Translations under genes and position numbers: made by a program
Shown: positions 10,543 through 17,597 of the stretch, piece by piece
Layout: each line of letters begins with the position of its first letter
Numbering within the stretch: position 1 is the stretch's first letter
From: a virus
Direction: 5' to 3' (one strand)
Length of the DNA stretch: 63,344 nucleotides
Virus record (IMG/VR): IMGVR_UViG_3300037228_000056
Span: 1 to 63,344 of that record
The notes under the pieces: generated by a model
Seen by the model: only the letters and a program-made list of their open reading frames with translations
Databases searched by the model: none
Told to the model about the DNA's origin: nothing

Positions 10543-11127
10543 ATGGCCACGGGAGCGCGCGGGGGCACCGGGCGCTTCCGGCGGACCGTGGAGTCCGCTG
10601 CGCGCGACATGCGCGCGGCGGAACTCCACGGCCAGGGCTGGACGCACCAGCGCATTGCCGACGAACTCGGATTCGCGCACCGCGGCAAGGCGACGGAGGC
10701 GATCCAGCGCGCGTTCGCGTCCATCCCCACCGAGGGCGCGGAGATGGCCAAGCGCATCGACCTCGAGCGCATCGACCAGCTGATCGAGAAGAACTGGGAA
10801 GTCCTGGAGCGCCAGCACGTCACGGTCAGCCAGGGCCGCGTGGTGCGACGGTTCACCGGTGTGGAACGGCACGCCGACGGCATCGAGAAGCTGGACGCCG
10901 ACGGCAAGCCCATCCCTGTCTTCGAGGACGTGCTGGACGACGGCGCGGTAGCCACCTCGAGCACCGTCATCCTGCGGCTGCTGAAGCGCCGCGCGGAAAT
11001 GTACGGGTACGACGAGCCGGTGCACACGCGGGTGGAGATCGTGCCGCCCGAGGTGATCGAGGCCAACATCGCGCGGCTGGAGCTGGAGCTTGCCGGCAAC
11101 GACCCCGCTCGTCCAGGCGCCGCTTGA
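10543..11127 (+). CDS. terS: small terminase subunit-like protein
   Basis: A 194-residue protein. It carries an N-terminal helix-turn-helix (AAELHGQGWTHQRIADELGF), a central helical part and a C-terminal domain. It lies directly upstream of the large terminase and overlaps its start by 38 bases. HTH plus this position is the normal signature of a small terminase that recognises the packaging site. Sequence identity to known TerS families cannot be judged here. Confidence 0.65.
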   Translation: MATGARGGTGRFRRTVESAARDMRAAELHGQGWTHQRIADELGFAHRGKATEAIQRAFASIPTEGAEMAKRIDLERIDQLIEKNWEVLERQHVTVSQGRVVRRFTGVERHADGIEKLDADGKPIPVFEDVLDDGAVATSSTVILRLLKRRAEMYGYDEPVHTRVEIVPPEVIEANIARLELELAGNDPARPGAA

Positions 11128-13933
11128 CCGGCTCCGCTACCTGCAGGAGCTTCAGCGCCGGTCAGCGCAGATCAAGCGGGGGGTGGCGAGGTACTACGAC
11201 GACCCGCTCGGGTTCGCGGCCGACTGCATCGACTGGCGCGGCGGGGGGCTGAAGGAGTACCAGCAGGAGATCATCGGCGAGCTGCCGTCCCGCAAGCGCG
11301 AGGCGGTCCGCGGGCCCCACACGCTCGGCAAGTCCACGATCGCCGCGGTCGCCGTCCTGTGGTTCGGGCTCACGCGCGATGCCGCGGGCGTTGACTGGAA
11401 GGTCGCGACGACCGCCGGGTCATGGCACCAGCTGACGAGGTACCTCTGGCCTGAGATCCACAAATGGTCCGGGCGCCTGCGCTGGGACAAGGTGCGCGAC
11501 GGGCGCCCGTTCACCCGGCAGGAGCTTCAGAACCTCAACCTTCGCCTGAGCCACGGCGCCGCGTTCGCGGGAGCCAGTGCCAACGCTGCGCTGATCGAGG
11601 GCGCGCACGCAGACTCGCTGATGTTCATCTACGACGAGTCCAAGGCGATCCCCGCGGGCACGTTCGATGCCTGCGAGGGCGCGTTCGGCGGCACGGGCGA
11701 GGCGCTCGCCCTGGCGCTCTCCACTCCCGGAACGCCAGCGGGCCGGTTCTACGACATCTGCACCCGCCGCGCCGGCTACGAGGACTGGCACCCGGTCCAC
11801 GTCACGCTGGAACGGGCGATAGCCGCGGGCCAGGTCGATGAGGCGTGGGCTGACCAGCGCGCACGGCAGTGGGGCACCCAGTCGGCGATCTACGTCAACC
11901 GGGTGCTCGGCGAGTTCCACGCCGGCGACGAGGACTCCGTGATCCCGCTCGCGTGGGCTGAGGCCGCGGTGATCCGCTGGCTTGAATGGGATCTCGCCGG
12001 AAGGCCCGGAACCGAGTCGGCGTGGCCGCGGACCGTCGGCGTGGACGTGGCCAGGTCGGGCTCGGACAAGACGGTCCTGGCACCGCGCCGCGGCCCGGTG
12101 ATCATCGACCTTCGCCGCTCGGTCAAGGAAGACACGATGCAGACCACTGGCCGCGTGAAGGGCGTCCTTGACGCTGACCGGGGGCGCACTACCCCCGTGG
12201 TGGACGTGATCGGCATCGGCGCGGGCGTCGTCGACCGGCTCCGCGAGCAGGAGTACCGCGTTGAGGCGTTCAACGCATCGGCCCGCAGCGATCGCCTCGA
12301 CGCCACGGGCGAGCTCGGGTTCATCAACTGCCTAACCGGCGATGCGCGCGTCACTCCGGTCGGGAACCTCCGGCGCATCTACCGGAGTCGCCACGAGGGA
12401 CCGCTTCTCCAGGTCGAAACGGCCAGCGGCGACCACTTCACCGCCACCCCGAATCACCAGGTACTGACGCTCCGGGGATGGGTCGCGGTCCAGTCGCTCC
12501 GCGTGGGCGACAAGCTCTGCGATGCCTCGGTCCGTAATGCGCCGGATGCAGCCGCCGTTCGGCCAGAAGTAGACGACGTGCCACCCAAGCTCAGCGAGGT
12601 CTATCGCGCGGCTGACGTTGTGTTCGGATCGGAACGGGTGCAGCGCGGGACTGTGGACTTCCATGGCGACCGACCTGCGGGTGAGGTCGATGTTGTAACG
12701 ATCGACCGCCGACTGCTGGCCCGTTATCCATCCTCCGGGCAGTGCGCCGAGCACCATCAGTTCATCAGGCTTCTGATACTGGCGGGTCAACTCCCGCGTC
12801 CGGGAGCGCTTGCGCATGCGGTCGGGGTGCGTGACCGGATAGGACGGATAGCTGCGTCCCTCCCAGACGGGAGGATGCCTTGTCCCGCGCTCCCTTCGCT
12901 GGGCGAGGGTGAGCCGGTTGAGGACGAGATTGTTCGCCTCGGTGATCGTTCGCGCCGTGACGCCATGGTCACTCAGGACGCGGTAGATAATCCGTTCAGA
13001 GTGACCGTAGGCGAGCGCCAGCGTCTTGGCCGATTCCCCCTCCATGTAGCGCCGGACGACCTCAGGCTCGTCAAGGTGAACCGTGCGGGTGAGGCGCATG
13101 GACTCGGCGTGCACGCGGGCCGTGACCTCGGCTTCGCTCAGGACGCGGCGAACCGCGTAAGGGTCAACTCCGAACGCCTTGGCCAGCGCGTGCACCGACT
13201 CGCCGACCGCGTAGCGGGCGACGAGGGCTGCGGAATCGACATTCGCGGCGGTCGCGAGCCTGGTGGCCTCGGCTTGGCCGCGTGGCTTGATTCCGTGTAC
13301 GTCAAGAACCTCGCGGATGGTGCTCCGGTCGGTCCGGTAGAGCTTGGTCAGCGAGTTAAGGGACTCGCCGGCGAGATAGCGCTGGATGAGGTCATCAGAG
13401 TCGAACTGACTGCGCCTGCCCTTGGGCATGAGGCACCTTTCGTTTACACGCTCGAAACGTCTACGGGGTCCTACGGTACCGCCAATGTGGTACATCGGAA
13501 CTGCCGGTCGGCGGCCTGGTGGGGCCTGCGCGAGATGCTGGACCCGTCATCAGGCTCGGAGGTCTGCCTTCCCGACGACGACATGCTTCTTGGCGACCTC
13601 TCGGCGCCGCAGTGGAAGGTGCTGAGCGGCGGCAAGATCCAGGTGGAGTCCAAGGAGGAGATCACCAGGCGCCTCGGCCGGTCAACGGACGACGGCGACG
13701 CGGTAGTCCAGGCTTTCTGGCTCACGTCGGCCCCGCATCAGGCGAACGCCCGCCAGTATGCCCTGCAGGCCGAGCTGGACGCGCTGACCCGTCCCGCCGA
13801 TCCGCGCCGCAGGCTGGCCGGTGATCCCTCGCGGCACGACGGCCGGCGTGATGACGGCTGGTCGCTGGACTCATTCGCGCCGCAGGAAGACGCGGGAAGG
13901 CCGGCGCGGCCTAACGTGCACTCGTGGCGCTGA
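11090..13933 (+). CDS. terL: large terminase subunit with intein
   Basis: A 947-residue precursor from TTG 11090 (overlaps terS; GGAGC upstream). The N-extein holds the ATPase: a Walker A-like GPHTLGKST (75-83) and Walker B LMFIYDES (177-184). The nuclease domain begins VGVDVARSGSDKT. The reading frame is interrupted after ...GELGFIN by an intein (12329-13501), and the nuclease resumes at CRSAAWWGLREM and DDGDAVVQAF. Without the intein the protein is about 556 residues, normal for TerL. The insertion is at a conserved active-domain position, as inteins prefer. The intein's internal third has no intein-like sequence in this frame because the opposite strand codes for the endonuclease. Confidence 0.85.
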   Translation: MPATTPLVQAPLDRLRYLQELQRRSAQIKRGVARYYDDPLGFAADCIDWRGGGLKEYQQEIIGELPSRKREAVRGPHTLGKSTIAAVAVLWFGLTRDAAGVDWKVATTAGSWHQLTRYLWPEIHKWSGRLRWDKVRDGRPFTRQELQNLNLRLSHGAAFAGASANAALIEGAHADSLMFIYDESKAIPAGTFDACEGAFGGTGEALALALSTPGTPAGRFYDICTRRAGYEDWHPVHVTLERAIAAGQVDEAWADQRARQWGTQSAIYVNRVLGEFHAGDEDSVIPLAWAEAAVIRWLEWDLAGRPGTESAWPRTVGVDVARSGSDKTVLAPRRGPVIIDLRRSVKEDTMQTTGRVKGVLDADRGRTTPVVDVIGIGAGVVDRLREQEYRVEAFNASARSDRLDATGELGFINCLTGDARVTPVGNLRRIYRSRHEGPLLQVETASGDHFTATPNHQVLTLRGWVAVQSLRVGDKLCDASVRNAPDAAAVRPEVDDVPPKLSEVYRAADVVFGSERVQRGTVDFHGDRPAGEVDVVTIDRRLLARYPSSGQCAEHHQFIRLLILAGQLPRPGALAHAVGVRDRIGRIAASLPDGRMPCPALPSLGEGEPVEDEIVRLGDRSRRDAMVTQDAVDNPFRVTVGERQRLGRFPLHVAPDDLRLVKVNRAGEAHGLGVHAGRDLGFAQDAANRVRVNSERLGQRVHRLADRVAGDEGCGIDIRGGREPGGLGLAAWLDSVYVKNLADGAPVGPVELGQRVKGLAGEIALDEVIRVELTAPALGHEAPFVYTLETSTGSYGTANVVHRNCRSAAWWGLREMLDPSSGSEVCLPDDDMLLGDLSAPQWKVLSGGKIQVESKEEITRRLGRSTDDGDAVVQAFWLTSAPHQANARQYALQAELDALTRPADPRRRLAGDPSRHDGRRDDGWSLDSFAPQEDAGRPARPNVHSWR
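12329..13501 (+). mobile_element. TerL intein with endonuclease on the opposite strand
   Basis: 391 codons. Block A starts with Cys1 (CLTGDARVTP). Block B is GDHFTATPNHQVLT with the TxxH motif. Block F is FVYTLETSTGSYG. Block G is ANVVHRN followed by Cys+1. Only about 68 N-terminal and 25 C-terminal residues look like intein. The roughly 300 residues between them are the in-register antisense translation of the endonuclease gene. The penultimate residue is Arg instead of the usual His. Splicing would need the long translated spacer to be tolerated as a linker. Confidence 0.85.
12332..13429 (-). CDS. homing endonuclease, Vsr/EDxHD-like, with three HTH repeats
   Basis: 365 residues from ATG 13429, with AAAGGTG 5 bases upstream. 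Three tandem repeats of about 49 residues (YLAGESLNSL / YAVGESVHAL / YMEGESAKTL, each followed by a recognition-like helix) form DNA-binding HTH units (about 10-157). The C-terminal part (AMEVHSPALHPF ... AIDLAELGWHVVYFWP) has the look of a very-short-patch-repair/EDxHD nuclease fold known from free-standing homing endonucleases. It lies entirely inside the terminase intein on the other strand. Its TAG is next to the intein's Cys1 codon. Codons TTA, CTA and TCA must be absent because they would be sense-strand stops. Confidence 0.8.
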   Translation of the reverse strand: MPKGRRSQFDSDDLIQRYLAGESLNSLTKLYRTDRSTIREVLDVHGIKPRGQAEATRLATAANVDSAALVARYAVGESVHALAKAFGVDPYAVRRVLSEAEVTARVHAESMRLTRTVHLDEPEVVRRYMEGESAKTLALAYGHSERIIYRVLSDHGVTARTITEANNLVLNRLTLAQRRERGTRHPPVWEGRSYPSYPVTHPDRMRKRSRTRELTRQYQKPDELMVLGALPGGWITGQQSAVDRYNIDLTRRSVAMEVHSPALHPFRSEHNVSRAIDLAELGWHVVYFWPNGGCIRRITDRGIAELVAHAERLDRDPSPERQYLVIRGGGEVVAAGRFDLEKRSLVATPVDAPEVPDRSDARIAG

Positions 13934-15429: not shown

Positions 15430-15723
15430 TTAGCCGATCACCGAGCGCCAGTCCACGTTTCTCGCGAGATCCTCGTAGTCGCGCCGGGCCTGAGTCGCGC
15501 GCTCGATCGCCTCGGCGACGGCAGCGCCGGTCATGCGCGCGCAGATCGCGTCCGTGATCCGTTCCGCAGTCGCCTGGTCGGCCATCTCGTCAACCACGTC
15601 CAGCAGGTCGCAGGTGTACCGGACCTGCTGACAGTAAAGCGCCTCGGTCATGAGCACTCGCCGGGCGTCGCCGTGACGGGACAGGTGCTCGCGCAGCCGG
15701 ATCGCTGATGACATCTCGGGCAT
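15430..15723 (-). CDS. antisense accessory protein with leaderless promoter
   Basis: A 97-residue helical protein (ALYCQQVRYTCDLLDVVDEM). ATG 15723 lies 6 bases after a -10 TACGCT (15735-15730 on the minus strand), so the mRNA should be leaderless. The gene is transcribed against the surrounding head genes. Function is unknown. Confidence 0.6.
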   Translation of the reverse strand: MPEMSSAIRLREHLSRHGDARRVLMTEALYCQQVRYTCDLLDVVDEMADQATAERITDAICARMTGAAVAEAIERATQARRDYEDLARNVDWRSVIG

Positions 15724-15752
15724 GCGCCCAGCGTAGCCGGGAGGTGCCAGCG

Positions 15753-17597
15753 GTGCCCGATTCCCAGAACGCGAAAGTCCTCCAGTTCCCGGACCTCGCG
15801 CCGAAGGCCCGGCGCCAGCTCATGCAGCCCGAGCTCGGCACGCAGTACGACTCGATGGACCGCATGTTCGCCTACTGGGCGGACGGCTCAGTCCTGGACT
15901 ACGGTGAGTGGACCTCGCGGGACATGGAGACCATGCTCGTCCGCGACGGGCAGGCCGCGGCGATCGAGGCCGTGATCACGCTGCCGATCCGGCAGGCGGC
16001 GACGGCGATCGAGAAGGCGACCGGCGACAAGGGCGAGGCCGATTTCTGCCGCTCGGTGCTGATGACCCCGCACACCGGCGGCGGCATGGAGACGCCGCTG
16101 CAGGACGTGATCGGCCAGCTCACCTCGGCGCAAACGTTCAGGAAAGCCTTTTTTGAGAAAGTTTGGAACATCCGCGACTCGGACGGCAAGATCGTCTACG
16201 ACAAGCTCGCGTTCCGGCCCGCGTCCACCTGCGAGCAGAAGCGCAATGCCCGCACTGCCGCGCGAGAGGGGTTTGTGCAAAGGGACTGGCTTTTCGGCGC
16301 GGGCGCAATGGAAATCGGAAAGCCAAAGAGCAAGACGCCTGGCTACGTGGAAATCCCGCAGATCCGCTCGTGGGTTTACGTAAACGGGAAGCACAGGAAG
16401 CCGCTAACCGGAACGTCTGAATTGGATCTTTGTTACTGGGCATTGGCGTATAATTCAGAAGTGCAGACGCCAAACGGTCCCGTAGCGATCGAAGACCTGT
16501 ATCCAGGCGATTTCGTTTTCGGTTCCGACGGTGAGCCGACTGAGGTTCTCGACGTCCTCGACCGGGGCGTGCAACCGATGTACCGCATCCGCTTCGACGA
16601 CCAGACGAGCGTGCTCTGCTCTGCCGATCACCTGTGGACAGTTGCGGAACGCCGCACCAACGGCAACGCCTGGACCAAGACGGTCCCGACTTCCTACATG
16701 ATCAAGACGGGCCTGAGGCTGTACGACGGCTTCCGGTTCATGGTTCCGCTGTGCGGAGAGGTTCAGTACCCTGAGCGCGACCTGATCATCGACCCCTATG
16801 TAATGGGTGCGTATCTCGGTGACGGGGGCGTTCAGAGAACCCGGAACGGCATCAACACTCCCACCCACGGCATCCAGTCCCCGACCTTCACGTGCGATGA
16901 GGATGACGCCGAGATCATCACGGAGATTGAGCTGAGGCTCTCGCCAGGGATCGAACTGAGGCGTCACGATGCCCTGCACTACGGCGTGACCGACACTCTG
17001 AAGGTTAAGCAGAACCGCTTCCGCGATGCGCTGGTCACGCTCGGCGTTGCCGTGCGTTCGCCGGAGAAGTTCATCCCGCAGATCTACCTCACAGCGTCCT
17101 CGAAGCAGCGGTGGGATCTGCTGCGCGGCCTCATGGACACCGACGGCCACGCTAGGGAAAAGACGCGGTCGATGTTCACCAGCACATCAGAGCGTCTTGC
17201 GCGGGATGTTCAGCTCCTCGTTCAGTCGCTCGGCGGCCGGGCAACCGTAACGGGGCCGAAATGGAGCGACGGCGGCACCCTGGACGGCCATGTGATCACG
17301 CGGCGCCACGCCACGTGGATTGTCTTCATCACCACACCCGAGCCTGCTTTCCTGCTTAAGCGGAAGGCCGACAAGTGGGGAGGAGGTGGTTACGAGAGAA
17401 AGAACAACTTCAAGTCAGTTGTCAGCATCGAGCCTGAGGGCGAGAAGGAGTGCCGTTGCATAACGGTCGCGAACGAGGACGGCCTGTTCCTCGCTGACAA
17501 CTACACGGTCACGCACAACTGCTACCAGACCAAACTGAAGCTGGTCTTTCTTTTAGCGGCTCTGGCTGCAATTCTTGGAACAGCAATCATTGCCTAA
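15753..17597 (+). CDS. portal protein, N-terminal part with class 3 intein
   Basis: GTG 15753 follows GGGAGG. Residues 1-229 form the N-terminal portal region of a DUF935/Mu gp29-like or actinophage portal (QTFRKAFFEKVW, YDKLAFRPASTCE). An intein occupies 16440-17519. The C-extein begins CYQTKLKLVF and then leaves frame at CTTTTAGC (17550-17557), running into an unrelated hydrophobic tail and stop. The conserved continuation is one frame over (see 17557-18378). The extein codons next to the intein are noticeably AT-richer than the rest of the gene, which suggests recent homing. Confidence 0.75.
   Translation: MPDSQNAKVLQFPDLAPKARRQLMQPELGTQYDSMDRMFAYWADGSVLDYGEWTSRDMETMLVRDGQAAAIEAVITLPIRQAATAIEKATGDKGEADFCRSVLMTPHTGGGMETPLQDVIGQLTSAQTFRKAFFEKVWNIRDSDGKIVYDKLAFRPASTCEQKRNARTAAREGFVQRDWLFGAGAMEIGKPKSKTPGYVEIPQIRSWVYVNGKHRKPLTGTSELDLCYWALAYNSEVQTPNGPVAIEDLYPGDFVFGSDGEPTEVLDVLDRGVQPMYRIRFDDQTSVLCSADHLWTVAERRTNGNAWTKTVPTSYMIKTGLRLYDGFRFMVPLCGEVQYPERDLIIDPYVMGAYLGDGGVQRTRNGINTPTHGIQSPTFTCDEDDAEIITEIELRLSPGIELRRHDALHYGVTDTLKVKQNRFRDALVTLGVAVRSPEKFIPQIYLTASSKQRWDLLRGLMDTDGHAREKTRSMFTSTSERLARDVQLLVQSLGGRATVTGPKWSDGGTLDGHVITRRHATWIVFITTPEPAFLLKRKADKWGGGGYERKNNFKSVVSIEPEGEKECRCITVANEDGLFLADNYTVTHNCYQTKLKLVFLLAALAAILGTAIIA
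16440..17519 (+). mobile_element. class 3 LAGLIDADG intein in portal
   Basis: 360 residues. It starts with Ala (ALAYNSEVQTPNGP) and ends TVTHN before Cys+1. It has the class 3 Trp-Cys-Thr signature: Trp after the block B His (CSADHLW), Cys at block F position 4 (ECRCITV), and Thr at block G position 5 (VTHN). The two LAGLIDADG motifs are VMGAYLGDGG and LLRGLMDTDG. Class 3 inteins splice through the block F Cys and not through residue 1, and are known mainly from phages and phage-derived genes. Confidence 0.82.

Follow-up and report, generated by a model that had tools for sequence, protein, structure and literature searches.

Fractured genes, as Dassa et al. 2009 are said to have described them, consist of a split, trans-splicing intein that contains a Vsr-like, separately translated endonuclease. 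Sense/antisense coding of the Rodin-Ohno type, reportedly invoked for the aaRS classes, would place two genes codon on codon with functional motifs facing each other; it is held to be hypothetical and ancient. In the account given in PMC3943268, a homing endonuclease is either a free-standing protein translated from an intron or an intein fusion. The ShiLan element hides a sense-strand HNH endonuclease in another frame, within an insert that is open in the host frame and has no splicing domain (PMC11855218). For frequent overlapping frames, that paper cites a preprint on actinobacteriophage inteins by Gosselin, Arsenault, and Gogarten (bioRxiv 10.1101/2025.01.02.630785), which speaks of a "non-canonical architecture."

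Here, we analyze an intein in the terL gene of a viral DNA stretch of 63,344 nucleotides (the window; IMG/VR record IMGVR_UViG_3300037228_000056). Like canonical large inteins of the PI-SceI type, it lies in a conserved host gene and has a Hint domain split between blocks B and F by an endonuclease. However, the canonical endonuclease is an intein fusion in the account of PMC3943268, whereas that of the window is encoded as an independent opposite-strand gene. With ShiLan, the element shares an endonuclease hidden in a second frame of an insert that is open in the host frame, but ShiLan has a sense-strand HNH endonuclease and lacks a splicing domain, while here the endonuclease is antisense and a Hint domain is present. 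A separately translated endonuclease inside an intein, here putatively Vsr-like, is also what reportedly characterizes fractured genes; those inteins are split and splice in trans, whereas the sense frame of the window element is unbroken and dual-coded. We consider it very probable that this intein splices in cis and that its homing endonuclease has a gene of its own on the opposite strand, codon facing codon, which extends from the block F side to the codon next after Cys1. A preliminary description of the window had proposed such an in-register antisense endonuclease, whose codon avoidance leaves the sense frame open, and the homologues described below support it.

The terL intein and the gene on its opposite strand

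The interrupted terL reading frame runs on the plus strand from a putative TTG start at 11090 to 13933 without a stop, and all 391 codons of the intein (12329 to 13501, Cys1 to Asn391) are open, as had been read initially. All of the intein blocks named in the preliminary description were located on this strand: block A (CLTGDARVTPVGN, 12329 to 12367; motif CLTGDARV), block B (GDHFTATPNHQVLT, 12428 to 12469; motif TATPNHQVLT), which is dual-coded with the antisense segment QYLVIRGGGE, block F (FVYTLETSTGSYG, 13439 to 13477; motif FVYTLETSTGSY), and block G (VVHRN, 13487 to 13501), followed by the +1 Cys at 13502. The nucleophile at residue 1, the Thr and His of block B, the terminal Asn, and the +1 nucleophile are all present. 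The N-terminal splicing domain was matched by Pfam Intein_splicing (E = 3.9e-5) and NCBIfam TIGR01445 intein_Nterm (E = 7.5e-5), with both matches below the curated cut-offs. AlphaFold modeled the ends of the sense product confidently (residues 1 to 67 and 350 to 391) and residues 84 to 128 with moderate confidence, while residues 129 to 349 (12713 to 13375, plus strand), the sense shadow of the endonuclease, had very low confidence (pLDDT 20 to 40) and are predicted to be disordered. When this model was searched with Foldseek, mini-inteins ranked first in the PDB (probability 1.0, E = 3e-3), with Mtu RecA the best match; the model thus has a Hint fold. Without the insert, the extein is 54% identical to the terminase of Streptomyces phage TurkishDelight, and the alignment is gapless across the junction (GFIN-CRSAAWW in the window and GFRN-VRSAAYW in TurkishDelight), so that the homologue presents a precise empty site. 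Introns also carry endonuclease genes, and the insert could in principle be removed as RNA by group I or group II splicing; but an Rfam search returned no intron match, intein blocks are present, and the frame is kept open, making RNA removal scarcely credible. A second, ordinary intein lies in the portal gene of the window (15708 to 17597, plus strand), and its in-frame LAGLIDADG endonuclease contrasts, within the same DNA, with the antisense arrangement.

The antisense gene (12332 to 13429, minus strand; 365 amino acids with an ATG start) sits entirely within the intein. Its TAG stop faces Leu2 of the intein, its ATG faces His367, and a ribosome-binding site, AAAGGTG, is found at 13434 to 13440 (minus strand). 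The three helix-turn-helix (HTH) repeats that had been noticed in its product (amino acids 11 to 154; 12968 to 13399, minus strand) are supported by Pfam HTH_58 (E = 9e-12), by a relation to PDB 2LVS, and by the AlphaFold model, which has three HTH-like repeats followed by an alpha/beta domain. The putative nuclease domain (amino acids 202 to 347; 12389 to 12826, minus strand) was identified from relatives rather than from the window protein by itself. In those relatives, the domain gave remote Pfam matches, all below cut-offs, to REase_MTES_1575 (1e-4), Vsr (0.003), and DUF559 (0.005), and a profile of the endonucleases matched the endonuclease-like protein 3HRL remotely (0.0065). The conserved nuclease core YNID...VAMEV (amino acids 245 to 257; 12659 to 12697, minus strand) contains residues Y, N, D, A, and E that are invariant across the aligned relatives. 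Direct matches to the PDB were confined to HTH proteins and the weak 3HRL match, with no strong fold match, and I-Bth0305I, an EDxHD structure, was absent among PDB sequence matches to E = 5 and among the top 50 fold matches. PADLOC found no defence genes. We describe the minus protein as HTH repeats joined to a Vsr/DUF559/MTES_1575-like nuclease, a remote assignment that agrees with the nuclease domain initially read here; a nuclease, by remote match, and a DNA-binding domain are accordingly encoded together in a mobile splicing element.

Relatives, codon register, and stop avoidance

Searching with the minus protein (tblastn) uncovered relatives that lie antisense within genes bearing MuF-like, head morphogenesis, or minor capsid annotations, in phages and prophages of Gordonia, Salmonella, Idiomarina, Klebsiella, Pseudomonas, Vibrio, Aggregatibacter/Haemophilus, Edwardsiella, Pantoea, Cronobacter, Mycobacterium, Rhodococcus, and Helicobacter. 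Another lies inside the dCMP deaminase of virus Rctr197k, and others are inside the TerL of viral contigs. Every intein-embedded locus inspected has intein blocks on its sense strand. Judged from these sequences, the antisense arrangement is a family whose members fall into at least 38 sequence clusters, occupy several extein genes, and occur in many unrelated phages. None of the annotated records inspected lists an endonuclease of this family inside an intein; the authors who described the E. coli phage Snoke annotated its intein and left the endonuclease unmarked.

On Candidatus Promineifilum breve replicon NZ_LN890657.1 (26743 to 27537; from a plasmid collection), a relative lies beneath a gene labeled "phage minor head protein," which broadens the family in the direction of Chloroflexi. 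The gene with the dCMP/cytidine deaminase intein (loci L007, 616 to 1968, and L045) is annotated "head morphogenesis" in Rctr197k, a label probably derived from the shadow sequence, and several Salmonella phage records (e.g., ZCSE7, NBSal007, and TU03) name the MuF-intein gene "NAD+--asparagine ADP-ribosyltransferase." The member in Rhodococcus phage REQ3 (L027, 2273 to 2947) apparently starts with Ala instead of Cys (HPN, then AVLEGST), the +1 residue of locus L053 is Ser, and the penultimate block G residue of many MuF members is often Ser (IIASN and VAVSN) or Lys/Arg, not His.

Over the window gene, plus and minus codons are in exact register, codon on codon. Sense stops then correspond to antisense TTA, CTA, and TCA, none of which occurs in the 365 endonuclease codons, and both points stand as they were first made. 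At the 68% GC of the window, however, merely 3 to 5 such codons are expected (3.3 by flanking codon usage), and the probability of finding none is ~0.03 by flanking usage or ~0.008 by the A-ending codons of the gene's other four-fold boxes. The open sense frame judged in the window alone is therefore modestly surprising (P of about 0.01 to 0.03) and constitutes weak evidence. Long antisense open reading frames (ORFs) also face other genes of the window. The weight of the argument lies with the homologues.

Among 38 intein-embedded endonucleases (one per 70%-identity cluster, 36 to 72% GC, with TerL, MuF, and dCMP deaminase as extein genes), there are no TTA, CTA, or TCA codons, versus about 158 CTA and TCA codons expected when the A-ending rate of the other four-fold boxes (603/4219) is applied to the 1058 CTN and TCN codons. 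Of that expectation, 90 belong to the 19 members with an endonuclease gene below 55% GC. The nominal P of 1e-75 leaves out shared descent, which makes the counts of relatives non-independent. Every intein-embedded locus inspected, including those of 36 to 44% GC, is in register 0 with an open sense frame, whereas the other two sense registers contain 3 to 24 stops in the viral-contig set. By contrast, the sole free-standing relative found, in Acinetobacter phage IME285, contains 12 TTA/CTA/TCA codons. We explain the codon-facing register by the genetic code: all sense stops then equal antisense TTA, CTA, and TCA, which can always be replaced by synonyms, and in no other antisense register can an arbitrary protein be encoded without an opposite-strand stop through synonymous Leu/Ser choice alone.

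These data also bear on whether the intein might be split, as in a fractured gene, with halves made separately, trans-splicing, and the endonuclease between them. Vsr-like endonucleases have reportedly been seen beside split inteins (Dassa et al. 2009). Yet the sense frame is unbroken in all intein-embedded loci, sense stops are avoided at a clear codon cost, and no such locus has its host gene and intein in separate frames, the hallmark of a fractured gene. We regard a split intein as very unlikely.

The endonuclease gene lies wholly within the intein in 29/29 measured loci, covering 81 to 93% of it, and in 22 of these its start is exactly 20 codons from the intein C-terminal end. The start usually faces the His preceding block F, and the complement of the VYNLQ codons supplies the ribosome site. 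In 20/29 loci versus 6.9 expected (12 versus 1.6 among loci below 56% GC), block F encodes its Leu as CTC, which contributes GAG to the antisense ribosome site. No shared antisense promoter was demonstrated among the members examined. One candidate, a -10 box on the antisense strand of block G that reads TATAAT in several members, was rejected: 14/36 members match at 5/6 or better versus 11.2 expected, and the 4 matches at 6/6 versus 1.1 expected are unconvincing. The preliminary description took the locus for an intermediate state. We abandoned this interpretation because deeply diverged members preserve the arrangement, with at least 38 clusters, several extein genes, a constant register, and a ribosome site embedded in block F; the best reading appears to be a stable, widespread family.

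Selection on the two strands

In pairwise comparisons of the middle region, changes concentrate at antisense third positions, and protein identity is higher for the antisense than for the sense product (e.g., 0.78 versus 0.54 and 0.83 versus 0.61). By these measures, selection in the middle acts on the minus frame; the opposite pattern, a plus-strand middle conserved as protein facing an unconserved minus strand, was not observed. These comparisons are decisive against the possibility that the minus ORF arose by chance opposite an ordinary sense-coded intein domain in a GC-rich genome. The long antisense ORFs of the window, and a chance of ~0.03 to 0.01 of finding no sense stops there, would be compatible with such an origin; but relatives of the minus protein occur in phages of 36 to 72% GC, the antisense product is the better conserved one, and the sense middle is predicted to be disordered. 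The substitution pattern and the homologues refute this explanation, which we consider extremely improbable.

Conservation differs over the final 75 endonuclease codons, which face blocks A and B: here the changes move toward first positions of the antisense codons, and the sense and antisense proteins are about equally conserved. A codon-level conservation map of 28 representatives likewise revealed endonuclease-only conservation over the HTH repeats and early nuclease, and sense-dominated conservation at block A and in the surroundings of B. Block B (TPNHxxLT opposite QYxVIRG) and the nuclease core were conserved in both frames. Exactly opposite the nuclease core residues VAMEV(H) lies the sense motif VDFHGD (12653 to 12670, plus strand), whose FHGD is at about residue 111 of the window intein. 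The core codons are nearly always [AG]TC GCC [AG]TG GAA, at any GC content, while neighboring conserved endonuclease residues lack such third-base constancy. These third bases are free in the endonuclease, and it is through them that the sense FHGD is maintained. The free-standing gene has GTG GCG CTG GAA, which would give FQRH in sense, a contrast that consists of one sequence. The substitution pattern and codon map together show selection on both proteins, separately over the part belonging to each and in common over blocks A/B and the nuclease core, which establishes bidirectional coding under selection at the level of sequence comparison. The preliminary description had assigned a linker role to about 300 residues of antisense shadow. 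Residues 129 to 349 are predicted to be disordered, but with the independent conservation of FHGD and the dual coding of blocks A and B with the endonuclease C terminus, the intein middle is more than a passive linker.

Homing cycles usually pass through a stage of endonuclease decay, and the arrangement could be real while the endonuclease of the window itself has decayed, leaving the intein alone active there. However, the YNID/VAMEV core and every HTH repeat of the window gene are intact, as are its start and ribosome site, and among TerL relatives selection still acts on the antisense protein of the middle region; we think decay unlikely.

Mobility, proposed mechanism, and significance

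The E. coli phages Snoke and fEg-Eco06 (loci L012 and L026) are ~90% identical over shared muF segments but differ in the antisense-endonuclease inteins of this minor head gene: two sites are involved, each occupied in one phage and empty in the other. This presence/absence polymorphism is consistent with mobility. In the endonuclease tree, TerL members form one supported clade and dCMP deaminase members another, both among MuF members, a topology consistent with rare jumps into new genes. The free-standing IME285 relative (L019, 455 to 1348) nests among intein-embedded ones; its gene adjoins, and is convergent with, an uninterrupted MuF gene, and an identical protein is found in BUCT629 and P1068. 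It is as if stop avoidance lapsed once this gene had escaped the intein.

We infer the following cycle for a cis-splicing intein with an opposite-strand endonuclease. The sense strand, by its sequence, reads through as a single TerL-intein precursor, whose Hint halves would fold around the mostly disordered shadow of ~220 residues and splice TerL in cis. The endonuclease would be translated independently from its own antisense ribosome site, and its HTH repeats would bind the empty terL site, which it would then cut. Repair would copy the whole intein, always including the complete endonuclease gene, and thereby accomplish homing.

Searches of an open-access library gave no title or abstract describing an antisense or opposite-strand endonuclease in an intein. 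The Gordonia members may be covered by the preprint of Gosselin et al., given which priority for the antisense-endonuclease intein is uncertain. On balance, we favor the view that this is a previously undescribed, widespread intein class, with its splicing domain and homing endonuclease on opposite strands and with truly dual-coded segments (block B and the C-terminal motif, FHGD and the active site, and block F and the antisense start). The family breaks the rule of in-frame fusion for intein endonucleases, adds a hidden endonuclease family, and accounts for many misannotated "minor capsid" and "head morphogenesis" proteins with shadow-sequence middles. It also offers a general reason for a codon-aligned antisense register, in that every sense stop then corresponds to a Leu or Ser codon that can be replaced. 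With more than 80% of each measured intein encoding two proteins on two strands, it is a clean system for extreme overlap coding, and phages available in the laboratory make direct tests of antisense dual coding possible. Whereas Rodin-Ohno coding is hypothetical and ancient, these inteins are a living, testable case of codon-on-codon coding and, if the class is indeed undescribed, would provide a natural, testable instance of bidirectional coding of that type.
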